The translations under genes and the position numbers were made by a program. From the NCBI GenBank assembly GCA_017513095.1, contig JAFWDJ010000019.1, positions 1 through 64,000 of the forward strand: a stretch of DNA of 64,000 nucleotides, given 5' to 3'. Each line of letters begins with the position of its first letter. The first letter of the stretch is position 1. This document shows, one piece after another, positions 425-45,965 of the stretch. The stretch is from Clostridia bacterium (lineage in GTDB: Bacteria > Bacillota > Clostridia > Oscillospirales > RGIG577). The notes beneath the pieces were generated by a model. The model was not told the DNA's origin. It worked only from the letters and a program-made list of their open reading frames with translations, and made no database searches.

Positions 425-1468
425 CTATTTGTCGAACTTGATCATTATCTTTATGTCTTTTCCGTTCGGATCCTCAAGAGCCTCGAAAGCACTCTGAACC
501 TCCTCGAGCTTTATGTCTCTCGAATACTGCTTCAGAACGTTGAATTCCTTGTTGGCGATTATCTGCATAACTTCCTTGAATTCGGGTGCGGTGTAGCCGA
601 GGATGCCTATAACGGTAAGTCTGTAAAGCATCGTGTGGAAAATGGAGAACGGCTTCGGTGCAAGCTGTACGCCGATGAGGGCAACCTTGCCGCGCATCTT
701 CATAGCTGCGAGACCGGTGTTCGTGCCGTTTATATTGCCGGAGCACTCGATGAAGTAGTCGAAGCCCTTGCCGCCCGTTGCAGCGCGGAGCTTTTCAACT
801 ATCTTTTCGTCTCTGCCGTCGAACAGCTCGTCTATGTAGCCGTCAGCCTTAACCTTATTGCCGCGGAATTCGTTTACCTCGGTCATTGCAACGTACTTTG
901 CGCCGAAGTATTTAGCCCACTGTGCAGCGCAGGAGCCGATGATGCCGCCGCCGGAAACGAGAACGGTAGCGCCTCTCGAAATGCCGAGCTGCTTGCAAGC
1001 CGAATATGGAGTGGAAGCAGGCTCGATCATTGCAGCCTCTTCGTCGCTCATCGCGTCGGGCAGCTTAACTACCATCTGGGGAGCCGCGCGCATAAGGTCA
1101 GCATACGAGCCTCTTGCAGCTTCCTGCGGATAGTTGCCGGGAGCGGGTATCTTAGCGGTGCAGTTGTCGAAATCGCCTGCACGGCAAGCGTCGCAGCGGC
1201 CGCAGTAGGTGGTCAGCGGGATGGTCGTTATTCTGTCGCCTACTTTAAGGTCCGTTCTGCAGCCGGGGTCTGCAACAACGCCGGCATGCTCGTGTCCGGG
1301 AACGGTACTGTTGTACATCGCGCCGGAGCCTACCTGCCAGAAATGAACGTCGGATCCGCAGATGCCTACGGCCGTCGGCTTCATAAGTACGTGATACCCA
1401 TCAGCCTTGGGGGCGTCGATCTGAACTATTTCTATCTTCTTGTCCGCGGTAATCATTGCAGCTTTCAT
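425..1468 (-). CDS. Zinc-dependent dehydrogenase, MDR family (paralog 1 of 5)
   Basis: 347 residues, a medium-chain dehydrogenase/reductase of the threonine/sorbitol dehydrogenase type that would oxidise a secondary alcohol with NAD(P). Catalytic zinc ligands are visible as Cys37 in GICGSD, His59-Glu60 in GHEH and Glu149. Ser39 is the proton-relay position. Four structural-zinc cysteines lie at 89, 92, 95 and 103. The nucleotide-binding loop GGGIIG is at 173-178. It is the most divergent of the five paralogs, lacking the QFPRD ending of the others. It has its own promoter at 1551-1579 and a terminator at 343-380. The substrate is unknown; nearby paralogs and a transporter suggest sugar, polyol or inositol catabolism (inference). 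Confidence 0.85.
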   Translation of the reverse strand: MKAAMITADKKIEIVQIDAPKADGYHVLMKPTAVGICGSDVHFWQVGSGAMYNSTVPGHEHAGVVADPGCRTDLKVGDRITTIPLTTYCGRCDACRAGDFDNCTAKIPAPGNYPQEAARGSYADLMRAAPQMVVKLPDAMSDEEAAMIEPASTPYSACKQLGISRGATVLVSGGGIIGSCAAQWAKYFGAKYVAMTEVNEFRGNKVKADGYIDELFDGRDEKIVEKLRAATGGKGFDYFIECSGNINGTNTGLAAMKMRGKVALIGVQLAPKPFSIFHTMLYRLTVIGILGYTAPEFKEVMQIIANKEFNVLKQYSRDIKLEEVQSAFEALEDPNGKDIKIMIKFDK

Positions 1469-1517
1469 AAAACATACACCTCTCTTGATTTTTTATAAGT
1501 TTACTTATTATTTATCA

Positions 1518-1541
1518 AAAACGGCAAAAAAGCCGTTTTTT
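1518..1541. terminator. Terminator-like hairpin in the leader of paralog 1
   Basis: AAAACGGC and GCCGTTTT enclose six A residues, with a T run on either strand. On the minus strand it sits between the promoter at 1551-1579 and the gene, so it lies in the 5' leader. It may block read-through or stabilise the mRNA end. Confidence 0.5.
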
Positions 1542-1550
1542 AATATTATT

Positions 1551-1579
1551 ATTCTATCATTATTGCACAAAAAACCCAA
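1551..1579 (-). promoter_or_regulatory. Promoter of paralog 1, shared motif
   Basis: TTGGGT (1574-1579), 17 bases, TAGAAT (1551-1556). The spacer reads TTTTTGTG followed by an A/T stretch and ATGA. Almost the same spacer is found before the genes at 1851 and 4750. The rest of the 382-base gap 1469-1850 holds the hairpin at 1518-1541, the inverted repeat at 1643-1680 and the terminator at 1800-1832. Confidence 0.65.
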
Positions 1580-1642
1580 TCGGAAAATTTAACTATTTTT
1601 CCGATAACAATATATTTACATTTGATTTGCTTTTAATTGAAT

Positions 1643-1680
1643 AATGATAAAAAATCACCTTTCGGAAACGCTTTTATCAT
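1643..1680. promoter_or_regulatory. Inverted repeat with cre-like core upstream of paralog 1
   Basis: ATGATAAAA and TTTTATCAT arms enclose CGGAAACGCTTTTA, which fits the CcpA/LacI-type operator pattern except at two positions. It lies about 65 bases upstream of the promoter at 1551-1579. Treat it as a possible operator only. Confidence 0.25.
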
Positions 1681-1799
1681 ACTTTTATCCGCGTGTTTCG
1701 AAGTAACACGGGTTTTTATCGGCGCCATGCCGATTTGTACGGAGTTTTCCCGTTATTCACATGGAATAAACGCGCAATTTTAATACTTTTTTCTTATAA

Positions 1800-1832
1800 T
1801 TTGCGGCGCAGGGGGAAATCCTGCGCCGCAAA
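1800..1832 (-). terminator. Strong hairpin after paralog 2
   Basis: A 12-bp perfect stem (1800-1811 with 1821-1832, arm TTTGCGGCGCAG) lies just beyond the stop of the gene at 1851. The following T tract is weak on the minus strand. Confidence 0.6.
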
Positions 1833-1850
1833 ATCATATTTATTCGATTA

Positions 1851-2894
1851 TTACTTGCGGGGGAACTGTACCATTATCTTAACCTTGTCGCTGTCGGGCT
1901 TCTTAAGCTCCTCGTAAGCCTTCTGGATGTCCTCGAGCTTCCAGTCGCAGCTGTAATGACGCATAACGTCTATCTTCTTGTCCGCGATAAGCTGGATTAC
2001 CTCGTCGAACTCGTCGAACGAGTAGCAAAGATGGAACTTGAGCGTGGGGCGCTTGTAGAGAGCCGGTATGAGATTGAGCTGAGCCGGCTTGTCGGACGAA
2101 CCGATCATCGTGATGACCGCGCCTATTTTGCATGCCAGAACGGCCGTGTTTATCGGTACGGACTGACCGGTGCACTCGAATGCGAAGTCAAAGCCCTTGC
2201 CGCCCGTCGCCTTAAGAAGCTTCGGTACAAGCTCCGGGTCCGCGCCGTCGAAGAGCTCGTCAATGTTTCCGTCCTTTAAGTTCTTCTCACCGCGGAACTT
2301 ATTTACCTCTACCATTGCAACGTAGCCTGCGCCGAAGTATTTAGCCCACTGTGCCGCAAACGAGCCGATTATGCCGCCGCCGAATACGAGGACCTTCTCG
2401 CCCGTCAGTATTCTCTGACGCTTAACCGCAGAATAGAGCGTTGCGCACGGCTCTACCATTGCGGCCTCTTCGTTCGACATACTGTCGGGAATCTTTCTTA
2501 CGAGCGAGGGAGCCGTTGCGAAATATTCCGCCATAGAGCCTGCGGGGCCGTTCGGGAAGTTGCCTACGCCCGTTTCTCTGTTTTCGCAGCGGTCAAACTT
2601 ATGTTCGAGGCAGGGGCCGCACTTTCCGCACGGAGCGGGCAGCGGTATGGACGTAACTCTGTCGCCCGGCTTTAAGTCGGTGCGTGCTCCGGGGTCAACG
2701 ACTACGAGCGAATGCTCGTGACCTACGCGCGTGAACTTGTGCGCGGGCAAATCGCCTAAATCCCAGAAATGCAGGTCGGAGCCGCAGATACCTACGGTCT
2801 CAACTCTCGTTATTACGTGATAGCCGTCAGACTCGGGCATCGGGAAATCCTGTACTTCGATTTTTTTTGCGCCGGTAATTATTGCACCTTTCAT
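1851..2894 (-). CDS. Zinc-dependent dehydrogenase, MDR family (paralog 2 of 5)
   Basis: 347 residues. It has the same plan as its neighbours: catalytic GICGSD and GHEH motifs, a structural-zinc block CGKCGPC with a fourth Cys eight residues on, a nucleotide-binding GGGIIG loop and a final IMVQFPRK. The start ATG at 2892-2894 follows AGGAGGAACGAAC. It is transcribed from its own promoter (2952-2980) and ends at the hairpin 1800-1832. Expected activity is NAD(P)-linked oxidation of an alcohol or polyol; the substrate is not determinable. It has GHEHSLVV where the others have GHEHAGVV or GHEHVGIV. Confidence 0.85.
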   Translation of the reverse strand: MKGAIITGAKKIEVQDFPMPESDGYHVITRVETVGICGSDLHFWDLGDLPAHKFTRVGHEHSLVVVDPGARTDLKPGDRVTSIPLPAPCGKCGPCLEHKFDRCENRETGVGNFPNGPAGSMAEYFATAPSLVRKIPDSMSNEEAAMVEPCATLYSAVKRQRILTGEKVLVFGGGIIGSFAAQWAKYFGAGYVAMVEVNKFRGEKNLKDGNIDELFDGADPELVPKLLKATGGKGFDFAFECTGQSVPINTAVLACKIGAVITMIGSSDKPAQLNLIPALYKRPTLKFHLCYSFDEFDEVIQLIADKKIDVMRHYSCDWKLEDIQKAYEELKKPDSDKVKIMVQFPRK

Positions 2895-2944
2895 GTTCGT
2901 TCCTCCTATATTTTTTTGCTTAATAAGCTTTATTATTATTCATG

Positions 2945-2980
2945 ATATCATAATTCTACAAAAAGTCCAATACTTTTTTG
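2945..2980 (-). promoter_or_regulatory. Promoter of paralog 2, shared motif
   Basis: On the minus strand TTGGAC is followed by a 17-base spacer, TTTTTGTAGAATTATGA, and TATCAT. The sequence from TATTGG through the -10 closely matches the promoter regions of the genes at 425 and 4750. Confidence 0.65.
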
Positions 2981-3011
2981 AAATTATTTGTTTAAAATAA
3001 TCATCTGTGCG

Positions 3012-3488
3012 CTAATTCATAACGGCTATCGAAAAATTCAGCACGGCGGCGTACATTATCCATAAGAGATACGGTATGAAAAGATAAAACGACACTCTGT
3101 CGACGCGGCGCATTTTCAAAAATGCCGCGCCCGCCGTACCGATAAGCAGAAGTATCCAGAAAAACGATGCCCAGAACGCGTTCAGAAGGAAAAACACCGG
3201 CGTCCACAAAAGATTTATAATTAGCTGCACCCAGAAGAGGTTAAGCGCCTCTCTGAGTCTCTCCGAGTCCTCCTTTTCGGGGAGATAGTATCGCAGGCGG
3301 TAAAGTATTATGCCTAAAATAACGTACAGTATCGGCCACACGATGCGAAACGCCGCCGCGGGCGGAGCGAATACGGGCAGCGTAAGGCTTTCGTATACGT
3401 CCGACGCTTTTATCGCCGCCGCACCCGAGACGAAGCCAAGCGCAAGGACAATGATTATTGATAATATGATTTTTCCGACTTTCTTCAA
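3012..3488 (-). CDS. tspO: TspO/MBR-family membrane protein
   Basis: 158 residues with five predicted membrane helices. Family features visible are YESLTLPVFAPP near the N-terminus, VWPILY, the FWVQLIINLLWT stretch and a closing PYLLWIMYAAVLNFSI. TspO proteins bind porphyrins or other small hydrophobic ligands and act in tetrapyrrole or stress responses. The likely start is TTG at 3486-3488, nine bases after GGGAGG. It lies between dehydrogenase paralogs 2 and 3 on the same strand; a functional link is not evident. The assignment to the family is firm, the role in this organism is unknown. Confidence 0.85.
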   Translation of the reverse strand: MKKVGKIILSIIIVLALGFVSGAAAIKASDVYESLTLPVFAPPAAAFRIVWPILYVILGIILYRLRYYLPEKEDSERLREALNLFWVQLIINLLWTPVFFLLNAFWASFFWILLLIGTAGAAFLKMRRVDRVSFYLFIPYLLWIMYAAVLNFSIAVMN

Positions 3489-3576
3489 AATGACGCCCTC
3501 CCGATATCTTTTTTATCAGTATATCTTGGAGAGCGTCGGATTATTCTATATGGCACGGCCTCCCGGGACGCAGAAA

Positions 3577-3600
3577 GGGCGCGGACGAAAGGCCGCGCCC
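3577..3600 (-). terminator. Hairpin after paralog 3
   Basis: GGGCGCGG (3577-3584) pairs with CCGCGCCC (3593-3600), 17 bases beyond the stop of the gene at 3618. On the minus strand the stem is followed by TTTCT, so termination may be partial, with read-through into the tspO-like gene. Confidence 0.55.
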
Positions 3601-3617
3601 CCTGATTTTCTTAAATA

Positions 3618-4661
3618 CTAATCTCTTGGGAACTGGATCATTATCTTTATCTTTTCGCATTCCGGCGAATGGAGATATTCGAAGCTCTTCTCTATCTCGT
3701 CAAGGCTGCAGTCGCCGGAGTGGTATCTTAAAACGTCGAACTTCTTCTCGGCGATAAGCCTTAATACCTCGTCGAACTCGGCGTCCGAATAGGTAAAATA
3801 CGCCTGAAGGCGCGCGCGCTTGAAGAGCGCGACTATATTATTAAAGAGTATCGGCTCGGCGGATATGCCTATTATGGCAATGCGCGCGTACATCTTGCTT
3901 GCCATCATCGCCATATTGAGCGGCTGCGCCGCGCCCGTGCATTCGAGCACGTAATCAAATCCCTTGCCGCCGGAGGCTTTGATGAGCTTCCCGAGAAGCT
4001 CGGGGTCCCTGCCGTCGAACAGCTCGTCTATATTGCCGACCTCAAGATTCTTTTTGCCGCGGAAGTCGTTGACCTCGACCATTGCGACGTAATCAGCGCC
4101 GAAATACTTCGACCACTGCGCCGCGAACGAGCCTATGATGCCGCCGCCGAATACGAGCACCTTGTCGCCGCGTCTTATGCCCATATCCTTGACTGCGGAA
4201 TACGGCGTCGCGCACGGCTCCACCATTGCGGCTTCCTCGTTAGTCATCGTATCGGGTATTTTTCTTACAAGCTGCGGAGCCGTGATAAAATACTCGGCGT
4301 AGGTTCCGGCCGGACCGTCCGAATAGCAGCCTATGCCCTTTATCCTGTTCGTGCAGTCGTCATAGCGATGCTCCATGCACGCCGTGCATACGCCGCACGG
4401 AGTGTTCTTGGGAAGCGAGGTTATCCTGTCTCCGACCTTTAAGTCGGTGCGCGAGCCGGGATCGAATACGACGCCCGCGTGCTCATGGCCGGGACGCACG
4501 CCGTAGCTGTCGGGCTGATCGCCGCGTTCCCAAATATGTATGTCGGAACCGCAGATGCCGCAAGTCTGCACTTTCATTATTACGTTCTTGCCGTCCGGCT
4601 CGGGCATCGGAAAATCGCGGACTTCTATCTTTTTTGCGCCGGTAATTATTGCACCTTTCAT
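3618..4661 (-). CDS. Zinc-dependent dehydrogenase, MDR family (paralog 3 of 5)
   Basis: 347 residues from the ATG at 4659-4661. This start is preferred over the upstream in-frame ATG at 4703 because GGGAGGG precedes it and it gives the same length and MKGAIITG opening as the paralogs. Catalytic zinc residues Cys37, His59 and Glu60, relay Ser39, structural Cys block CGVCTAC and GGGIIG loop are intact. It is closest to the gene at 4750-5793: long blocks such as SKYFGADYV and NIDELFDG are identical, pointing to recent duplication. It probably shares the transcript of that gene through the leaky hairpin at 4705-4728. Substrate unknown. Confidence 0.85.
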   Translation of the reverse strand: MKGAIITGAKKIEVRDFPMPEPDGKNVIMKVQTCGICGSDIHIWERGDQPDSYGVRPGHEHAGVVFDPGSRTDLKVGDRITSLPKNTPCGVCTACMEHRYDDCTNRIKGIGCYSDGPAGTYAEYFITAPQLVRKIPDTMTNEEAAMVEPCATPYSAVKDMGIRRGDKVLVFGGGIIGSFAAQWSKYFGADYVAMVEVNDFRGKKNLEVGNIDELFDGRDPELLGKLIKASGGKGFDYVLECTGAAQPLNMAMMASKMYARIAIIGISAEPILFNNIVALFKRARLQAYFTYSDAEFDEVLRLIAEKKFDVLRYHSGDCSLDEIEKSFEYLHSPECEKIKIMIQFPRD

Positions 4662-4704
4662 GTTATACGTCCCTCCCGTAGTGATATTTGGTATTTGTTG
4701 CAAA

Positions 4705-4728
4705 GAGCGCGGCCTTTCGGCCGCGCTC
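4705..4728 (-). terminator. GC-rich hairpin between paralogs 4 and 3
   Basis: A perfect 10-bp stem, GAGCGCGGCC with GGCCGCGCTC, has a four-base loop and is followed on the minus strand by only TTTG. It lies in the 88-bp gap between two dehydrogenase genes. It could be a partial terminator or an mRNA stabiliser that sets the ratio of the two products. Confidence 0.55.
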
Positions 4729-4749
4729 GGGCGTTATAGCATTAAATTA

Positions 4750-5793
4750 TCAGTCACGCGGGAACTGAAGCATTATCTTTACCTTCTGGCATTCGGGCGA
4801 ATGGAGGTACTTGAAGCAGTCCTCTATCTCCTCGAGCTTGCAGTCGCCGGAGTAGTATCTCATAACGTCGAACTTCTTCGTTGCGATAAGGTTCATTACC
4901 TCGTCGAACTCAGCGTCGGTGTAGCAAAGGTATGCCTGCAGGCGCGCTCTCTTGAACAGCGCGTAGATGTTGTTGAAGAGTATCGGCTGAGCGGATACGC
5001 CGATTATAGCGATGCGCGCGTACATCTTGCTCGCGAGGATCGCGGTGTTGAGCGGCTGCGACTGACCGGTGCATTCGAGCACGTAGTCAAAGCCCTTGCC
5101 GCCGGATGCCTTAATGAGCTTCTGTAAAAGCTCGGGGTCCTTGCCGTCGAACAGTTCGTCTATATTGCCTACCTCAAGGTTCTTCTTGCCGCGGAACTCG
5201 TTTACCTCTACCATGCCTACATAGTCCGCGCCGAAGTATTTCGACCACTGAGCCGCGAACGAGCCGATGATGCCGCCGCCGAATACGAGTACCTTGTCGC
5301 CTCGTCTTATGTTCATATCCTTAACCGCGGAATAAGGAGTTGCGCACGGTTCTACCATTGCGGCCTCTTCGTTGAGCATTCCGTCCGGTACCTTTCTTAC
5401 GAGGTTCGGTGCCGTGAAGAAATACTCGGCATACGTGCCTGCAGGGCCGTCGGCGAAGTTGCCTACGCCCTTTATTCTGTTCATGCAGTCGTCATAGCGA
5501 TGCTCCATGCAGGCGGTGCACTTGCCGCAGGGGGCGCTTACGGGAAGCGAGGTGATTCTGTCGCCTACCTTTAAGTCGGTGCGCGAGCCGGGATCCACTA
5601 CGATGCCCACGTGCTCATGACCGGGACGGATGCCCTTATAGCCGGGCTTGTCGCCCAGCTCCCACATATGTATGTCGGAGCCGCATATGCCGCAGGTCTG
5701 CACTTTCATTATTACATTTTTGCCGTCCGGCTTAGGATCCGGAAATTCCTGAATCTCCAGCTTTTTTAAATCAGTGATGATTGCGCCTTTCAT
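4750..5793 (-). CDS. Zinc-dependent dehydrogenase, MDR family (paralog 4 of 5)
   Basis: 347 residues, start ATG preceded by AGGAGGAACGTGT. Cys37, Ser39, His42, His59 and Glu60 are in place, the structural-zinc block is CGKCTAC, the nucleotide loop is GGGIIG, and the C-terminus is MLQFPRD. It is very similar to paralog 3, differing mostly in surface segments. It has its own promoter (5844-5871). Family knowledge gives NAD(P)-dependent alcohol/polyol dehydrogenase; the exact substrate is open. The repeated retention of near-identical copies suggests related but different substrates or a dosage effect (inference). Confidence 0.85.
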   Translation of the reverse strand: MKGAIITDLKKLEIQEFPDPKPDGKNVIMKVQTCGICGSDIHMWELGDKPGYKGIRPGHEHVGIVVDPGSRTDLKVGDRITSLPVSAPCGKCTACMEHRYDDCMNRIKGVGNFADGPAGTYAEYFFTAPNLVRKVPDGMLNEEAAMVEPCATPYSAVKDMNIRRGDKVLVFGGGIIGSFAAQWSKYFGADYVGMVEVNEFRGKKNLEVGNIDELFDGKDPELLQKLIKASGGKGFDYVLECTGQSQPLNTAILASKMYARIAIIGVSAQPILFNNIYALFKRARLQAYLCYTDAEFDEVMNLIATKKFDVMRYYSGDCKLEEIEDCFKYLHSPECQKVKIMLQFPRD

Positions 5794-5843
5794 AATACAC
5801 GTTCCTCCTATTATATATATTTTGGGATGTGCCGGGGTTTTCT

Positions 5844-5878
5844 TGCGTAATATTATATCATATTTTCACAAAAATCCA
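5844..5878 (-). promoter_or_regulatory. Promoter of paralog 4, shared motif
   Basis: On the minus strand TTGGAT is followed by TTTTGTGAAAATATGA and a perfect TATAAT. The pattern TATTGGAT-T-rich-TTGTG matches those before paralogs 1 and 2. A 16-base spacer and ATGA before the -10 are seen here. Confidence 0.65.
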
Positions 5879-5908
5879 ATACCCTTTTTAGAATTTTTGT
5901 TTATTTTT

Positions 5909-6952
5909 TTAATCTCGGGGGAACTGAATCATCATCTTTACCTTGTGCGACGTGGGCGAATGAAGCTCCTCGAACGCCTCGTTTAAGGTCTCGAGCGTGC
6001 AGCCGCCCGAATAATGGCGCGATACGTCGAACTTTTTCTCGGCAACGAGCTTCATTACCTCGTCGAACTCGGCGTTCGTGTATCCGAGGTACGCCTGAAG
6101 GCGCGCGCGCTTAAAGAGCGCCACTATGTTGTTGAAGGGTATCGGCTTTACCGCTACGCCGATTATAGCGATACGCGCGTACATCTTGCTTGCCATCATC
6201 GCCATGTTCAAAGGCTCTGCATGGCCCGTGCATTCGAGAACATAATCAAAGCCCTTGCCTCCCGATGCCTTTAAAAGCTTTTTAAGAAGATCGGGGTCCT
6301 TGCCGTCGAAGAGCTCGTCAATATTGCCTTCGTCAAGGTTCTTCTTTCCCCTGTACTCGTTCACCTCAACCATTGCTACGTAATCGGCGCCGAAATATTT
6401 CGACCACTGCGCCGAGAACGAGCCGATTATGCCGCCGCCGAATACGAGCACCTTATCGCCGCGCTTTATTCCCATATCCTTCACTACGGAATACGGCGTC
6501 GCACACGGCTCTATCATGGCCGCTTCCTCGTTCGTCATGGTGTCGGGTATCTTTCTTACGAGCTGCGGATCGGCCGAAAAATACTCGGCGTAGGAGCCGG
6601 GCAGTCCCGCAGCGGAGAGTCCCATGCCCGTTATCCTGTTCGTGCATTCGTCGTAGCGGTGTTCAAGGCAGGCGGTGCACATGCCGCAGCCTACGCTTAC
6701 GGGTATCGTGGTAACTCTGTCGCCCGCCTTTAAATCGGTGCGCGCGCCCGGATCAACGACCACGCCTGCGTGTTCGTGTCCCATAATCGTACCCTTGTAC
6801 GTGGGCGTATCGCCAAGCTCCCATACGTGGATGTCGCCGCCGCATATGCCTACCGTCTGCGACTTAACTATTACGTTCTTTCCGTCCGATACAGGCTTGT
6901 TTATTTCCTGCACCTCAATGTTTTTTGCACCTGCTACAACTGCCGCTTTCAT
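5909..6952 (-). CDS. Zinc-dependent dehydrogenase, MDR family (paralog 5 of 5), relay Ser replaced
   Basis: 347 residues, start ATG preceded by AGGAGGGATTATTTTC. The catalytic zinc ligands Cys37, His59 and Glu60 and the structural block CGMCTAC are kept, as is the GGGIIG loop. The usual GICGSD motif reads GICGGD, so residue 39 is Gly instead of Ser. In liver alcohol dehydrogenase the equivalent Ser/Thr48 passes the substrate proton to solvent, so catalysis or substrate choice may be altered. It is first in the direction of transcription and uses a promoter (about 6991-7020) that lacks the motif of the other copies. Confidence 0.85.
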   Translation of the reverse strand: MKAAVVAGAKNIEVQEINKPVSDGKNVIVKSQTVGICGGDIHVWELGDTPTYKGTIMGHEHAGVVVDPGARTDLKAGDRVTTIPVSVGCGMCTACLEHRYDECTNRITGMGLSAAGLPGSYAEYFSADPQLVRKIPDTMTNEEAAMIEPCATPYSVVKDMGIKRGDKVLVFGGGIIGSFSAQWSKYFGADYVAMVEVNEYRGKKNLDEGNIDELFDGKDPDLLKKLLKASGGKGFDYVLECTGHAEPLNMAMMASKMYARIAIIGVAVKPIPFNNIVALFKRARLQAYLGYTNAEFDEVMKLVAEKKFDVSRHYSGGCTLETLNEAFEELHSPTSHKVKMMIQFPRD

Positions 6953-18218: not shown

Positions 18219-20285
18219 TTACTCAGCGTCTGCCGGAGCCTCTGCGGGCGCTTCGGCGGGAGCCTCAGCCGGAGCCTCAGCCGGAGCCTCGGCGGGAGCC
18301 TCTTCGCTCTGCTCAGCAGCTGCCGCTTCCTTTGCGGCCGCGTCAAGCAGCGCGCGGATGCTCAAGTTTACCTTCTTCTTCTCGAAGTCGATAGCCGTGA
18401 TCTTCGCGTCTACGACCTGATCGATGGAAAGCTCGCTTTCGGGGCTGGGTATGTGCTTCTGAGCTATCTGGGAAACGTGGATAAGACCGTCAACGCCCGG
18501 AATTATCTGCGCGAACGCGCCGAACGGCATCAGCTTTATGATGCGGCAGGATACGACGTCGCCCACGTTATATTTGGACTTGAATATCTCCCACGGATTG
18601 TCCTCGGGCTTCTTATGACCGAGCGATATCTTCTTCTTTTCGCCCTCGGTGTCGAGCTTTAAGATGAATACGTCTATCTCATCGCCTACGGACATGATTT
18701 CGGACGGATTCTTTATGCGCTGCCACGACATCTCGGAAATATGAAGCATACCGTCCACGCCGCCGATATCAACGAAAGCGCCGTAGGGCATGATAGACTT
18801 AACAACACCCTTGTAAGTCTTGCCCACTTCGATCTCGTCCCAGATCTTCTTTGCGGCCTCGGCCTTGCGCTCAACGAGAACGGCCTTTATGGAGCCTATA
18901 ACTCTCTTTCTCTGGCGATTTATCTCAAGTATGCGTAAATCCACAGTAGTTCCTACGAGACCGGAAAGATCCTCGGTATAACGTTCAGCGGCAAGCGACG
19001 CGGGTACGAATACTCTTACGCCGTTCACCATAACGACAACGCCGCCTCTAACGGCTTCCGTAACGACGCCGGAGAGCACTCTCTGATCCTCTACGGCCGC
19101 TTCAACCTCTTTCCACATCTTCATAGAGTCGATCTTCTTCTTCGAGAGCATAATAACGCCTTCAACGTCGGATACTCTCACAACAAACGCCTCGACCTCG
19201 TCGCCGACCTTGACAAGATCGTTTAAGTTGGCATTGGGATCCGAAGTGAATTCATCAATCGGGATATAGCCGTCCTGCTTGGTGTCGAGATAGAGTCTTA
19301 TCTCGCCGGGAAGTATCTTGCTGACAGTACCGGTTACCACATCTCCCGTATGTAAAGATTTGATGGATTCCACAGCTTCCGCAAAGCTTAACTCCTCGTT
19401 GTTGTCCATGATTACTTTTTCGTCTTCCATTCTTTCAATAACCTCCCTAATAATAAAGGCGGGTGTAGACGCTCCCGCGGTTATGCCCACTTTGTCGTCT
19501 TGCCCAATCGTAATATTTGAAAGCTCCTCCGGCGTTTCAATATGAAACACGTTTTTGCAATGTTCAAGGCAGACCTCGTAAAGCTTTATGGTATTTGAGC
19601 TTTTTCTGCCGCCGATAACTATCACGGTATCGGAAACCTTTGATATCTCGGCCGCGTCGTTCTGCCTCTCCTCGGTCGCAAGACAGATGGTGTCGTACGT
19701 TTTTGCGTTCGGTATGTTTTCCTTAACGTAGGACAGGCACCTGTGCCAGTTCGCTTTATTGATAGTCGTCTGAGCCACCAAACATACGTTAGTATTCATT
19801 ATATCAAATGCGACAGATTTTTCAAGCCCTGTTTTTAATTCATTTAAAGTTTTATAAATATTTGCGCTTTCGGCGCACCAGCCGTTGATGCCGATGACCT
19901 CCGGATGCGCCCTGTCGCCTATTATTATCACCTCGTCGCCCGCTTCGTGGTGCTTCTGAACGATGCGGTGTATCTTTCTTACGAACGGGCACGTCGTATC
20001 GATGCACTCGACGCCCAGCCGCTCAAGCTCTTCGTATACTTTTTTGGCCTCGCCGTGCGCCCTGATTATAACGCGCGCGTTCTTTCCTTTTATTTCATCG
20101 GGCGAATGGATGAGCTTCACGCCCTTTTCGATAAGCTCGTTTACGACCAGGTCGTTATGTATTATTTCCCCCAGCATATAAAGGTTTTCGGCGTTTTCGG
20201 CTACGGCCTCGTATGCCATCTCCACCGAACGCTTTACTCCGAAGCAGAATCCTGCGTGGGGCGACACGATTATTTCACGCGGCAT
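18219..20285 (-). CDS. ispH: IspH / ribosomal protein S1 fusion
   Basis: 688 residues. Residues 1-285 form IspH, which reduces HMBPP to IPP and DMAPP in the MEP pathway, with iron-sulphur cysteines 14 (AGFCFGVKRS), 99 (DTTCPF) and 201 (TICLATEE). From about 300 to 625 there are four S1 RNA-binding repeats, for example MPYGAFVDIGGVDGMLHISEM. The same IspH-S1 fusion is known from other Clostridia. The C-terminal tail is a repeat of Ala-Pro-Ala-Glu encoded by 12-bp DNA repeats. A TATAAT box at about 20332-20337 (minus strand) is a likely -10. Confidence 0.95.
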   Translation of the reverse strand: MPREIIVSPHAGFCFGVKRSVEMAYEAVAENAENLYMLGEIIHNDLVVNELIEKGVKLIHSPDEIKGKNARVIIRAHGEAKKVYEELERLGVECIDTTCPFVRKIHRIVQKHHEAGDEVIIIGDRAHPEVIGINGWCAESANIYKTLNELKTGLEKSVAFDIMNTNVCLVAQTTINKANWHRCLSYVKENIPNAKTYDTICLATEERQNDAAEISKVSDTVIVIGGRKSSNTIKLYEVCLEHCKNVFHIETPEELSNITIGQDDKVGITAGASTPAFIIREVIERMEDEKVIMDNNEELSFAEAVESIKSLHTGDVVTGTVSKILPGEIRLYLDTKQDGYIPIDEFTSDPNANLNDLVKVGDEVEAFVVRVSDVEGVIMLSKKKIDSMKMWKEVEAAVEDQRVLSGVVTEAVRGGVVVMVNGVRVFVPASLAAERYTEDLSGLVGTTVDLRILEINRQRKRVIGSIKAVLVERKAEAAKKIWDEIEVGKTYKGVVKSIMPYGAFVDIGGVDGMLHISEMSWQRIKNPSEIMSVGDEIDVFILKLDTEGEKKKISLGHKKPEDNPWEIFKSKYNVGDVVSCRIIKLMPFGAFAQIIPGVDGLIHVSQIAQKHIPSPESELSIDQVVDAKITAIDFEKKKVNLSIRALLDAAAKEAAAAEQSEEAPAEAPAEAPAEAPAEAPAEAPADAE
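18236..18306 (-). repeat. 12-bp tandem repeat encoding the APAE tail of IspH-S1
   Basis: About six imperfect copies of GAGCCTCAGCCG-like units in the plus-strand sequence, coding on the minus strand for repeated Ala-Pro-Ala-Glu. Copy number is likely to vary between strains by slippage. Confidence 0.8.
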
Positions 20286-24139: not shown

Positions 24140-25237
24140 TTAAGCTTCCGGCTCGGTTTCAGCTTCTGCCTCTGCCTCGGCTTCCACCTCAGCCTCTGCC
24201 TCTGCCTCAGTCTCTGCCTCAGCTTCAGCATCTGCTTCGGTCGCGATAGCAACGTAATCCTCGGGTACTGCTACGCCAAGCTCTGCGCATATTTCAGCAT
24301 TGTACTTCTTGGTAACCTGCGGAGCGTATTCGATAGGCATCGTGGATATGTCAGCGCCCTCTGCAAGGATCTTTGCAGCCATAAGACCGGTTGCATAGCC
24401 AAGGTCATAGTAGTTGATGGACAGGGTAACGGTGCCGCATACGGAGCAGATGCCCTCTTCGCCTGCAACTACCGGAACCTTCGCGGGACGGCAGATACCG
24501 TCAACTATGCCTGCGGAGGAAGCAACGGTGTTGTCGGTGGGCACGTAGATAAGGTCGCACTCGGAAACAGCGGTGGTGCAAACTGCAGCGATGTCGTTAG
24601 CGTCGGAGAAGGAGTAGAGCTTTACGTTCTTGCCCTGTGCGGTAAGCTCAGCGGATACAACGTCGATCTGATACTGCGAGTTCGGCTCTGCCGAGCAGTA
24701 GAGAAGGCCGATGTTCTGTGCGTCGGGGAATAATTCCACGATCATTGCAGCCTGCTGATCGAGCGGAGCGAGGTCGGACGTACCGGAGATGTTGCCGCCT
24801 ACGGTGCCGTCGAAGTCGGCGATCTCAAGAGCAACGCCGTATTCGGTGATGGACGTGCCGAGGATCGGGATGGTAGCGGTAGCCGATGCAGCTGCCTGGA
24901 GTGCAGGCGTTGCGTTGGCCATGATAAGGTCGTAATCCTTGGAAACGAAGTTGTTTACGATAGTCGAGCAAGCGTTCGAGTCGCCGGAAGCGTTCTGAAC
25001 GTCGATGTTCACTGCGTCTTCGCCGAGCGTCTCAACAAGCGCGTCGCAGAAGCCCTGAGTTGCGGCGTCAAGTGCAACGTGCTGGATGAGCTGGCATACG
25101 CCTACGTTGTAAACAACAGCTTCGCCCGCGCCGTCGTCGGCAGCAGGCTCTTCGGTTTTGCTCTGGTTGCTGCATGCTGCGAATGCAAACGCAAAAATAA
25201 GCGCAAGCACGAGAGCCAGAATTCTTTTTGCATTCAT
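24140..25237 (-). CDS. ABC transporter substrate-binding lipoprotein (TrpX-like, DUF534)
   Basis: 365 residues. A lipoprotein signal ends in the lipobox FAAC with Cys22. The body matches the DUF534 binding-protein family (VGVCQLIQHVALDAATQGF, IMANATPALQAAASAT, PILGTSITEYG), which in some Firmicutes is linked to tryptophan. The last 33 or so residues are only Ala, Glu, Thr, Val, Asp and Pro in an AEAE pattern. This acidic tail is unusual for a binding protein and could be a spacer or slippage product. Promoter 25393-25421 and a long hairpin-rich leader precede it. Confidence 0.87.
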   Translation of the reverse strand: MNAKRILALVLALIFAFAFAACSNQSKTEEPAADDGAGEAVVYNVGVCQLIQHVALDAATQGFCDALVETLGEDAVNIDVQNASGDSNACSTIVNNFVSKDYDLIMANATPALQAAASATATIPILGTSITEYGVALEIADFDGTVGGNISGTSDLAPLDQQAAMIVELFPDAQNIGLLYCSAEPNSQYQIDVVSAELTAQGKNVKLYSFSDANDIAAVCTTAVSECDLIYVPTDNTVASSAGIVDGICRPAKVPVVAGEEGICSVCGTVTLSINYYDLGYATGLMAAKILAEGADISTMPIEYAPQVTKKYNAEICAELGVAVPEDYVAIATEADAEAEAETEAEAEAEVEAEAEAEAETEPEA

Positions 25238-38382: not shown

Positions 38383-39164
38383 CAGCGTGCATCTCCCTTC
38401 TGAAAGCTGCCGCGGCGGTCGCCGTCACGGCGGTCCCTGCGGTCGCGGCGGTCGCGGCGCTCGCGGCGTTCCTGAGGCGGAAGCGCGGGCTCGGGACGAA
38501 CGTCTGTGCGCTTGGAATCCGGAAGAACCTCGCCCTTGTATATCCAAACCTTTATGCCCAGCTTACCATATGTGGTGTTTGCCTCGGCAAAGCCGTAATC
38601 GATATCTGCGCGAAGCGTCTGCAGCGGGATCGAGCCCTCGTGATAATGCTCGCTTCTTGCGATTTCTGCGCCGCCGAGTCTGCCGGATGCTGCGGTCTTT
38701 ATGCCCTTGACGCCCATCTTCATGGCGCGCTCAATGGCCTGCTTCATTGCGCGGCGGAAGCCGACTCTGCGCTCGAGCGCGGATGCGATGCTCTCGGCTA
38801 CGAGCTGTGCGTTCGTTTCGGGGCGCTTGATCTCAACGATGTTGATGGAGACCTGCTTGCCGAGCATCTTTTCAAGGTTAGCCTTGAGCTTTTCTATCTC
38901 GGCGCCCGCACGGCCGATAACTATGCCCGGCTTTGCGCAGTGGATGTTTATCTTAACTCTTGCAGAAGCCGCGTCCGCGCCTGCCTGACGCTCAATCGCG
39001 ATTTTTGCAACTCCTGCAGCGTACAGAAGCTCTTTTAAATACTTTCTTATGTTGTAGTCTTCAACGAGCGTGTCTCCGAAGTCTTTCTTATTTGCATACC
39101 ACTTGGAGTCCCAGTCGTTAATAACGCCTACTCTGAAGCCTACGGGGTTAACTTTCTGACCCAT
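38382..39164 (-). CDS. rpsC: 30S ribosomal protein S3 with Arg/Asp-rich tail
   Basis: 260 residues. The KH domain ([20 protein letters not shown] near 60) and the C-terminal domain ending in [18 protein letters not shown] are normal. About 40 residues beyond the usual end consist mostly of Arg, Asp and Glu (RRDRRD repeats), making it longer than the common 210-235. Disordered charged tails occur on S3 of some Firmicutes, but no role is known. S3 lines the mRNA entry site. Confidence 0.96.
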
Positions 39165-43565: not shown

Positions 43566-44321
43566 ATGAAGAAAGAATTCATAAAAGGCAAGAACGGCTA
43601 CGATATTCCCTGCCTTCACAACATCTCCGGAAACGACAGTCTCGTCGTTATCAGCCTTCACGAGTTTAGAAGCTTAAAATACACGCCCATAACGGCCGCG
43701 CTCATGACAGCGCTCGAAAATGAGGGCATAGCCTCAATATGCTTCGACTTCGCGGGACACGACGAAAGCCCCGTTGACGGCGAGAAGTTTCTGATGGGCA
43801 ACTGCCTTGACGATCTTGCCGCTGTTGAAGAGTACGTGCACGCGCTCTCTCCCGACGCAGAGATCGCGTACTTCGCGTCGAGCTTTGGCGCGTATACGCT
43901 GCTTTTGCATTTCGCAATGAGAAAGCCGCTCGGCCGCCGCGCGTTCTTAAGATGCGCCGCAGTCGATATGGCGGCGGTCATCGAAAGGGTTGCCGCACCC
44001 GAGGCGTTCCGCACGCTTAACGAGCAGGGCTGGGTAGTGCTTGACAAGGGCCCGCTTCGCCCGCTCAAGATGATGAAGCAGCTCTATGATGAGTTCAGGG
44101 AGTACCGTCCCCTGCAGCTTCTCAAAAAGGGACAGGGCGATTTCGTCATGATCCACGGCGCTATGGACAAGAACGTTCCGCTTGAGTGGGTCAGCGAGTT
44201 TTCGGAGACGCTCGACATACCCCTTATTATAATAGAAGATACAGATCACTTCATGTTCAAGCCCAAGACAGCCATACCGAGGGTCGTGGACGAGGCAGTG
44301 AAGTTTTACAAGCGCGATTAA
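43566..44321 (+). CDS. Alpha/beta hydrolase
   Basis: 251 residues from ATG 43566, after GAGAGG; the frame extends upstream but has no ribosome site. The fold is shown by HEFRSLKYT (oxyanion strand), DFAGHDES, the nucleophile elbow ASSFG with Ser106, Asp201 in GAMDKNVP and His228 in DTDHFMF. It resembles serine aminopeptidase/esterase-like hydrolases. The elbow starts with Ala instead of the usual Gly. Substrate unknown. It is followed 20 bases later by the zinc-ribbon gene and may be cotranscribed. Confidence 0.78.
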   Translation: MKKEFIKGKNGYDIPCLHNISGNDSLVVISLHEFRSLKYTPITAALMTALENEGIASICFDFAGHDESPVDGEKFLMGNCLDDLAAVEEYVHALSPDAEIAYFASSFGAYTLLLHFAMRKPLGRRAFLRCAAVDMAAVIERVAAPEAFRTLNEQGWVVLDKGPLRPLKMMKQLYDEFREYRPLQLLKKGQGDFVMIHGAMDKNVPLEWVSEFSETLDIPLIIIEDTDHFMFKPKTAIPRVVDEAVKFYKRD

Positions 44322-44341
44322 CACGGGAAAGAGCTGATACT

Positions 44342-44932
44342 ATGAAAAAACCTCCGGACGATATCCGAAATGACAGGCGCTACACGTCGACGCTGAGCAG
44401 TGAAAAGCATAAAGAAGCCGACGACTATATAACCGCTAAAACAAAAGGACACATGAGGTGGGCGATACCCATAATACTCCTGTGCGTCATATTTTTCATC
44501 GCCGGATTGTCGGTAACGCGGGATTATATAGCTGAAGGCAATCCCGATGTTCCTTTTGCCATCGTTATGGATATACTTATGTTTCTGCCGATATTCTTTA
44601 TAGGCCTCATTATAGTGCGAAAAGCGGCGGCCTTAAGATACGGCTACGCGCTTGCGGATGCGTCTGAGCCTTTCATTGAGTTTTCAAATCTCGACGAAGC
44701 GCTACATACGACGCGCGCGGCCGCGAAGCTAAAAGGGCTCTCACGTCGCGGATATATACGAAACGTCGAATTTGAGGACGAGGCGCAAAGGCTCATTCTC
44801 CCGCTCAACCAAGAGCACACGTTGGAGCACATGATGAATCCGATAAACATAATATGCCCCGGATGCGGAGCGTCGCTTCAGAAGATGCCCGGCGAAAATG
44901 TGCAGTGCGACTACTGCGGCCGGGAGCTTTGA
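44342..44932 (+). CDS. Two-helix membrane protein with C-terminal zinc ribbon, unknown
   Basis: 196 residues. A polar head of 37 residues is followed by two membrane helices (about 38-58 and 74-93). A cytosolic part follows and ends in CPGC and CDYC, a probable zinc ribbon. I recognise no family. It follows the hydrolase gene closely. The ribosome site is weak (GGGAAAGAG). A terminator-like hairpin lies ten bases beyond the stop. Confidence 0.65.
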   Translation: MKKPPDDIRNDRRYTSTLSSEKHKEADDYITAKTKGHMRWAIPIILLCVIFFIAGLSVTRDYIAEGNPDVPFAIVMDILMFLPIFFIGLIIVRKAAALRYGYALADASEPFIEFSNLDEALHTTRAAAKLKGLSRRGYIRNVEFEDEAQRLILPLNQEHTLEHMMNPINIICPGCGASLQKMPGENVQCDYCGREL

Positions 44933-44987: not shown

Positions 44988-45290
44988 TTATTTCTTTGTG
45001 AACTTATCCTTTAAGTTGGTGAAGCCTGCCTTAATCTTGTCGTCTATATCGGTCTTGTCAAGCACTCCCTGCGCCTTCTGCTTCATGCTGTCCGCACCGG
45101 CCTTGATCTTGTCGTCGATGTCGGTCTTGTCAAGCATCTCCTGCGCCTTGTCCTTCATACCGCCGACGCCCGCCTTGATTTTATCGTCGATGTCGGTCTT
45201 GTCAAGCATCTCCTGCGCCTTGTCCTTCATTCCGCCGACGCCTGCCTTGATTTTATCGTCGATGTCGGTCTTATCAAGCGATTCCTGCGC
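44988..45290 (-). repeat. 72-bp tandem repeat in the LEA-like gene
   Basis: Four units coding for DKTDIDDKIKAG-type 24-mers. The middle two units are almost identical at DNA level, suggesting recent expansion. Farther upstream (45300-45940) the coding DNA holds weaker 33- and 66-bp periodicity. Confidence 0.85.
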
Positions 45291-45965
45291 TTTGCTCTTC
45301 AGTGTCTGCTTCGCATCCTCAACTTTTATTTTTGCCTCTTCGCGAGCTTCCTGTGCTTTTTCCTTTGCTTCACGGAGCTTTTCTTTTGCTTTCGCTTCGG
45401 CATCCTCGCGCGCATCAATGGCCTTCTCCTTTGCGCCTTCGAAAGTCTCTTTCATTTTCTCTCCGGCGCCGTAGCTTGCGTCGACAGCCTTATTTTTAAC
45501 TTCGCCGACCTTTTCCTTTACCTTCTCCTCGGCTTCGTCGCGTGCGTCGATGACTTTTTCCTTTGCCTCTTCAATCTTTTCCTTTGCCTCGTCGCGCGCG
45601 TCGATTACCTTCTCTTTTACTTCCTCTATCTTTTCCCTCGCCTTTTCTTTCACTTCTTCGCGCGTTTCGATAACTTTTTCTTTTGCTTCTTCAATCTTTC
45701 CCTTTACTTTTCCCTCGGCCTCGTCGCGCAGATCAACTGCCTTTTCCTTGGCTTCTTCGATCTTCTCTTTTACCTTTTCCTCGGCTTCATCACGCGCGTC
45801 GACAGCTTTTTCCTTAGCCTCTTCAATCTTCGCCTCAGCCTCGTCGCGTACGTCGACGGCCTTTTCCTTCGCTTCCTCTATTTTTTCCTTTACCTTCTCC
45901 TCGGCCTCGTCGCGTGCGTCCAATGCCTTATCCTTAATATCCTCCAGTTTGTCTTTTATGTCCAT
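44988..45965 (-). CDS. LEA-like amphipathic repeat protein
   Basis: 325 residues from ATG 45963-45965, nine bases after AAAGGAG. Almost the entire chain is repetitive. Residues about 10-215 carry 11- and 22-residue helical repeats such as EEAKEKAVDARDEAEEKVKE, like late-embryogenesis-abundant group 3 proteins. Residues about 230-325 are four 24-residue units, LDKTDIDDKIKAGVGGMKDK plus AQEM. There is no signal peptide or membrane helix, and no Cys or Trp in the repeats. Such proteins coat membranes or proteins during drying or stress. In a spore former a role in stress or dormancy is possible (inference). It has a strong own promoter. Confidence 0.8.
   Translation of the reverse strand: MDIKDKLEDIKDKALDARDEAEEKVKEKIEEAKEKAVDVRDEAEAKIEEAKEKAVDARDEAEEKVKEKIEEAKEKAVDLRDEAEGKVKGKIEEAKEKVIETREEVKEKAREKIEEVKEKVIDARDEAKEKIEEAKEKVIDARDEAEEKVKEKVGEVKNKAVDASYGAGEKMKETFEGAKEKAIDAREDAEAKAKEKLREAKEKAQEAREEAKIKVEDAKQTLKSKAQESLDKTDIDDKIKAGVGGMKDKAQEMLDKTDIDDKIKAGVGGMKDKAQEMLDKTDIDDKIKAGADSMKQKAQGVLDKTDIDDKIKAGFTNLKDKFTKK

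Follow-up and report, generated by a model that had tools for sequence, protein, structure and literature searches.

The gene studied here lies on the minus strand of a 64-kb stretch of DNA; below, "the window" means this whole stretch. Its open reading frame has exactly the boundaries given in the original prediction and encodes a protein, P0001, that is built of two repeat modules. The features of the locus are as follows.

44988..45965, minus strand: gene of the two-module charged repeat protein P0001 (325 aa; ATG at 45965; supported by orthologues)
46034-46006, minus strand: promoter-like TTGACT-N17-TATACT of the sigma-70 type; the first hexamer overlaps the trpF stop codon
45974..45980, minus strand: ribosome binding site AAAGGAG, read from sequence; also present in the related genomes G001 and G002
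44974-44942, minus strand: intrinsic terminator-like hairpin of 14 pairs, between the P0001 gene and a convergent plus-strand gene
45474..45965, minus strand: N-terminal 3-11 amphipathic helix, residues 1-164 (22- and 18-residue units; moment peak at 98.5 degrees; predicted single helix 3-164)
45459..45473, minus strand: predicted helix break, residues 165-169 (SYGAG region; AlphaFold2 secondary structure)
45300..45458, minus strand: second hendecad segment, residues 170-222 (helical wheel; low-confidence predicted helix 170-232)
45003..45290, minus strand: four 24-residue KTD repeats, residues 226-321 (units 45219-45290, 45147-45218, 45075-45146 and 45003-45074)

This is a real and unusual gene. 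The computed mass of the product is 36.6 kDa, with a pI of 5.0 and a GRAVY of -1.25. It consists of 22% K, 18% E, 14% A and 12% D, and residue counts over the whole protein gave zero Pro, Cys and Trp. No enzymatic domain was matched. As predicted, there is no export signal: on inspection the N-terminus (MDIKDKLED...) has no hydrophobic stretch, and the sequence contains no signal peptide.

The gene was expected to have a promoter of its own, and this holds. Both hexamers of the sigma-70-type TTGACT-17-TATACT are kept in G001 and G002, the two other genomes of the genus, despite diverged spacers. The conservation of the hexamers and of AAAGGAG against this background supports a monocistronic unit that is probably transcribed by the housekeeping sigma factor. 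Upstream on the same strand lie trpB-A-D-C-F (named by eye from translations), and the orthologues in G001 and G002 share the position after trpC and trpF. A different hairpin is found downstream of the orthologue in G001. Since the genome encodes both Spo0A (inside the window) and SpoIVA, sporulation is possible for the host; the promoter sequence shows no sign of sporulation control. An Rfam scan around the gene gave no RNA element at gathering scores. The codon adaptation index of 0.658, rank 16 of 36 entries (two of which are sub-parts of P0001), is uninformative, and the neighbouring genes give no functional context. The convergent plus-strand gene (window 44186-44932) encodes membrane segments and a C-terminal zinc-ribbon-like CPGCG..CDYCG, with no Pfam match at E 0.001.

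The repeats of the two modules are clearly distinguishable from chance. In residues 1-222 self-identity at lag 22 is 0.48 (the maximum of 500 shuffles is 0.27), and the peaks at lags 22, 40, 44, 33, 18 and 11 all exceed the maximum of 500 shuffles. In residues 223-325 self-identity reaches 0.78 at lag 24 (maximum of 500 shuffles 0.28). The charged amphipathic repeats reported originally are thus confirmed, and so are the four 24-mers. The description of the remaining repeats as 11/22-mers has to be corrected, however, to units of 22 and 18 residues: they start at RDEA, with anchor spacings of 22, 18, 22, 22, 22, 18, 44 and 22.

The hydrophobic moment of residues 1-222 (the N-module) peaks at 98.5 degrees, i.e., 3.65 residues per turn, and equals 0.276 versus a shuffle maximum of 0.182. 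Units in residues 2-164 and 170-222 hold one helical phase at 3.65 residues per turn; the moment of residues 177-222 alone is not above shuffles. Within residues 2-164 the mean deviation from the hydrophobic direction is 42 degrees for ILVMF, 48 for A, 75 for K/R and 137 for D/E, and permutation of the charged residues only gave p = 0.0002 for these stripes. The orthologues in G001 and G002 have the same three stripes, at 98.25 degrees. The N-module is 61% charged, its net charge is -17 and its mean local 3-11 moment is 0.31-0.32.

Five control proteins were compared with the N-module in segments of 163 residues. For coiled coils of the SMC and RecN kind encoded in this genome, the peak lies at 102-103.75 degrees and the acid-minus-base separation is at most 23.5, versus 62 in the N-module. 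An ATP-synthase-b/DivIVA-like protein from a relative (L006) reaches a separation of 42 at best in 163-residue segments and of 56 in 66-residue segments, so high separation is not unique to the N-module. The combination of high separation with a coherent 98.5-degree moment of 0.31 occurred in none of the five. A stretch of ApoA-I peaks at 98.5 degrees with a separation of 30.9, and eight copies of the LEA 11-mer quoted in PMC6559209 peak at 98.0 degrees with a separation of 79.8. The 3-11 moments given in an excerpt of PMC5889406 are 0.30 for alpha-synuclein, 0.35 for Plin3, 0.39 for ApoA-I and 0.257 for Plin4; if the scales are equivalent, as we assumed, the N-module falls among the first three and above Plin4. 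Given the order of the stripes and these controls, the N-module has the layout of a class A 3-11 amphipathic helix, with hydrophobic, basic and acidic stripes. Helices of this kind are known, but the bacterial setting is unfamiliar.

Other kinds of long charged helices were considered. A single alpha-helix (ER/K) rod was rejected: there are 24 acid-to-base i+4 pairs versus 19.9 expected (z 1.3) and 44 acid-acid i+4 pairs versus 25.4 expected, counts that are not typical of such helices. Hendecad periodicity also defines right-handed coiled coils, and it would fit a structural rod, a spacer or scaffold in which the hendecads of a homodimer or higher oligomer wind into a right-handed or straight coiled coil and the KTD helices provide a tail for oligomerisation or docking. 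AlphaFold2 does predict a single helix over residues 3-164, with block-mean pLDDT of 84-94 over residues 1-60; the structure predictions have low confidence (pLDDT 62 and 54). We regard the rod as rather unlikely, since the core is Ala-rich, 61% of residues are charged, the heptad-type geometry of SMC and RecN is missing, and Foldseek found for the predicted structure no solved structure with E below 0.1. Clear homology to a coiled-coil protein of cell division or the cytoskeleton, named at the outset as the result that would count against the prediction, was not found either. Matches to Scy, DivIVA and SMC do occur below the cut-offs, but at E 0.16 to 1.6 and with scores far under those cut-offs, and the helix geometry with its stripes differs from that of the genome's own SMC- and RecN-like proteins. 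Membership in such a family is very improbable, and we rejected it.

The search for apolipoprotein-like families that had been proposed did return a match, though one short of the model's threshold: Pfam Apolipoprotein (PF01442) scored 67.7 bits (E 1.4e-18) with a cut-off of 90. A sequence search of the PDB gave ApoA-I at E 2.5e-5. Pfam YtxH (PF12732) scored 37.9 bits with a cut-off of 37.5 via the charged helical part, which is what YtxH proteins and P0001 share. The best stretch covers only profile positions 28-70 of 71, and P0001 has no hydrophobic N-terminal segment, which we take to be the defining trait of YtxH. Against the whole genome the YtxH model gave nothing at E <= 0.1. Scrambled N-modules were also scanned against Pfam (three of four full scrambles and three of four phase-preserving ones). 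Apolipoprotein was matched by 3/3 phase-preserving scrambles (30.6-38.3 bits) and by 0/3 full scrambles, so periodicity explains much of the Apolipoprotein and YtxH scores, and these matches measure geometry as well as any ancestry. Descent from either family was rejected as a conclusion from the Pfam matches alone, because helical phase itself yields matches; the 62.9 bits of the real N-module, compared with the scrambles, make a remote ancestry possible. NCBIfam gave sub-cut-off matches only. PADLOC gave weak matches only (E 0.003 or worse), and a defence system was rejected.

The exchangeable apolipoproteins A-I, A-IV and E have class A stripes like those of P0001, which differs from them in being far more charged and in having no Pro punctuation of 22-mers and no signal peptide. 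Perilipin 4 and alpha-synuclein resemble it in their long, weak, uninterrupted 3-11 amphipathic helix. According to an excerpt of PMC5889406 the charged share is 24% in the synuclein helix and 15% in the Plin4 helix, versus 61% here, and these proteins have no sequence family in common with P0001.

The designation "LEA-like" proved correct as a physical analogy but not as a family assignment. Like group 3 LEA proteins (PF02987; Deinococcus dr_1172), P0001 has an 11/3 period, Ala/Lys/Glu stripes, high hydrophilicity, variable repeat number and no Cys or Trp. Their trait of tandem units with an amphipathic 11/3 period is present as 22/18-mers. Further traits of group 3 LEA proteins are disorder in water, a helical state upon drying or lipid contact, and induction under water stress. 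Unlike them, it is built of 22/18-residue units rich in RDEAE...KVKEKIEEAKEKA, not TAQAAKEKAGE, carries the extra KTD module and lacks a LEA_4 match. The LEA_4 (PF02987) search that had been suggested gave 0 matches in the genome at E <= 10, and the model is absent among the Pfam matches of P0001 at E <= 10; membership in LEA_4 was rejected on these grounds. The best identity of P0001 to the consensus 11-mer TAQAAKEKAGE is 6/11 (P = 0.28 by shuffles), and 13 segments have at least five identities to it versus 2.5 expected. Literature searches on hendecads with LEA and on LEA with YtxH found nothing.

The C-terminal 24-mers, of the form AQExLDKTDIDDKIKAGvggmKdK, had been taken for an expanding variant of the hendecads. 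They are instead a separate repeat family that was missed earlier and that usually has no long hendecad region. We define this KTD family by tandem L[DE]KTD[IVL]D[ED]K[IVL] motifs at a spacing of 24, 17 or 28 residues; P0001 fits with four units at 24. A profile of the region of residues 223-325 found 127 relatives in genome contigs, 80 of which are listed. The titles of all 80 listed relatives name Clostridia, Clostridiales, Bacillota, Firmicutes or a named taxon within them. By eye, 61 of the 80 listed of 127 carry isolate names of the RUG or RGIG type, a share that may mirror sampling: each of the 32 RGIG titles names a ruminant gut site, and the 29 RUG titles presumably denote rumen genomes. 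In the 269 units of the listed loci and P0001, the signature positions are kept in 268 (L), 265 (T), 265 (D), 269 (D) and 265 (K) cases; these are upper values, since the pattern used for finding units already fixes the residue classes. Motifs in the same set are 24 residues apart in 149 cases, 17 apart in 20, 28 apart in six and at scattered distances otherwise. The 75 complete KTD proteins have a median length of 124 (71-334). One listed relative, L057, has no motif, and its frame is open at the contig start.

The family is rare in the sampled genomes: the C-terminal query found it in 4/394 genomes of the order, and profile A4 in 7/391 genomes of the class, several of the seven being near the limit of E = 0.001. 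For the 29 A4 members, judged by scores for the first one and by best E-values for the other 28, no model of Pfam or NCBIfam was above cut-off, the best matches being CAP18_C at 1.6e-6 (2/29) and YtxH at 1.9e-5 (11/29). CsbD (PF05532) matched one KTD relative at E 0.00048; its 20.4 bits are far under the cut-off of 40. The small CsbD stress proteins are, like KTD relatives, short and charged. Profile A4 found no relative in the PDB below E 0.025, and no paper came up when the literature was searched with the motif spelled in four ways. The KTD repeat is thus in no catalogue that we searched. Structure models of it are weak (pLDDT 54, pTM 0.23), with helices that break around DKTD. The pattern T-D-x-D/E resembles a helix N-capping box, and one heptad is the difference between the spacings of 17 and 24.

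Extensions of at least 50 residues flanking the KTD block were surveyed in 78 listed relatives (L018, from the same genus, and L057 were left out), with the first ATG taken as the start, so that some residues are doubtful. Among 27 such extensions, from loci that are not independent, 20 have a moment above all 60 shuffles and seven do not; 13 of the 20 peak at 97.5-99.5 degrees. Five hand-picked relatives agree with this survey, which is the more trustworthy of the two. The KTD module and 3-11 helices recur together in many relatives.

A phage or plasmid origin of the KTD module was rejected: the C-terminal module had no match in 50,697 phage and 72,556 plasmid records. A conserved gene partner was rejected as well. 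The largest cluster of genes near KTD genes, an ABC-type ATPase (by eye), occurs at 9/80 loci at scattered distances and looks like background, and the tight clusters are small clades. In one small clade (L042, L071, L089 and L091) the KTD gene lies 38-208 bases from a desulfoferrodoxin-like gene (by eye), a hint of an oxidative-stress context in that clade. Other KTD genes adjoin GlnRS-like or BipA-like genes (by eye), each in small clades.

KTD motifs also occur in 13 environmental viral contigs (L114-L126; e.g., L115:3001-3225). Ten of the 11 translated viral frames have two motifs at 17-residue spacing followed by a hydrophobic C-terminal segment (104 aa); L114, which by eye looks like an algal or giant virus, encodes 120 aa with three motifs. 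The viral motifs may reflect either homology or convergence.

The number of KTD units differs between species: four in P0001, five in G001 and at least three complete ones in G002, where the contig ends inside the array. At the DNA level, the near-identity ascribed to the repeats is true of 24-mers 1 and 2, which share 66/72 bases, but not of the other pairs (54-61/72). The identity of units within a genome (0.79-0.83) is little higher than between genomes (0.75-0.78), so of the proposed ongoing length change the difference between species stands, and ongoing expansion within species is weakly supported.

Other repeat-derived tails and a local family expansion were seen elsewhere in the window. 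At 18225-18302 the tail of an IspH-S1-like fusion protein is a tandem repeat, APAEAPAE. A 6-base repeat at 24165-24235 encodes the acidic C-terminal tail, (AE)n, of an ABC substrate-binding-like protein, and the RRDRRDRRD tail of a ribosomal protein uS3-like gene (38411-38472) likewise derives from a repeat. Five similar zinc-alcohol-dehydrogenase-like genes lie close together at 425-6952 on the minus strand.

We tentatively favour, at somewhat under an even chance, the reading of P0001 as a cytosolic, conditionally folding LEA-like protein that would bind membranes weakly and reversibly and protect membranes and proteins under stress. This preference comes from a geometry suited to folding on weak lipid contact, together with the LEA literature. 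Group 3 LEA homologues conserve a weak hydrophobic moment and weak reversible membrane binding, according to an excerpt of PMC10808001, and protection of E. coli against drying by LEA motifs is reported in excerpts of PMC8670023 and PMC6559209. The free protein would be largely unfolded or dynamic and, on contact with lipid or dehydrated surfaces, would fold into long helices of the class A 3-11 type. Its approximately 220 N-terminal residues would then be a long, weak helix of many contacts, in which Ala/Val/Ile make up one face, lysines lie at the interface and acids point outward. The KTD repeats may add amphipathic helices of approximately 20 residues, each capped and kinked at L-D-K-T-D-x-D-E-K. 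In the way proposed for group 3 LEA proteins, P0001 could thereby cover packing defects of membranes reversibly and with low affinity, and shield proteins during osmotic stress, drying or exposure to detergents. The acidic net charge (-17) makes anything more than weak membrane binding unlikely. The lipid-binding rule D > 0.68 is passed by 20/308 segments of 18 residues, and with the net charge this suggests that the protein may have very little affinity for anionic bacterial membranes.

An alternative in which lipids play no part, a soluble molecular shield or disordered chaperone, would suit the extreme charge, the lack of Cys, Trp and Pro and the GRAVY of -1.25, and hydrophilic LEA domains are reported to protect enzymes and counter aggregation (excerpt of PMC6559209). 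Such a protein would not need the order of Ala/Val/Ile, Lys/Arg and Asp/Glu stripes, yet this order is kept across three species, and we consider the shield unlikely. Still less probable is a perilipin- or phasin-like coat of a lipid or polymer inclusion. The 3-11 geometry is like that of Plin4 and synuclein as described in the excerpt of PMC5889406, and the orthologues have weak Perilipin and Phasin matches (E above 0.7), but no PHA synthase (PhaC_N) was found in the genome by a search that was positive in the Caulobacter control, and a coat of PHA inclusions was rejected for that reason. A WS/DGAT search of the genome was empty, and no positive control matched, so it is uninformative.

If the LEA-like reading holds, bile-salt stress may be relevant in the gut. 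The parallel is with CsbD, which contributes to bile-salt resistance in group B Streptococcus (excerpt of PMC10294668), and is an analogy only. More speculatively, and with a rather low probability, KTD repeats, in many cases linked to class A 3-11 helices, could be a new membrane-buffering family of ruminant-gut Clostridia, one that corresponds in prokaryotes to the exchangeable apolipoproteins, perilipins and group 3 LEA proteins. The number and length (17 or 24) of the helix-capping KTD units would set the binding surface, and the viruses would carry the 17-residue unit on a hydrophobic tail that probably spans the membrane.

LEA-like and apolipoprotein-like 3-11 helices have mostly been studied in eukaryotes. 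With a model of the KTD family, annotation pipelines could put a name to many proteins of gut Clostridia that are now called hypothetical. Natural orthologues vary in repeat number, and the relatives have KTD repeats alone, hendecads with KTD repeats, or variable spacing; this natural variation in repeats and modules would make the roles of helix length and capping directly comparable.
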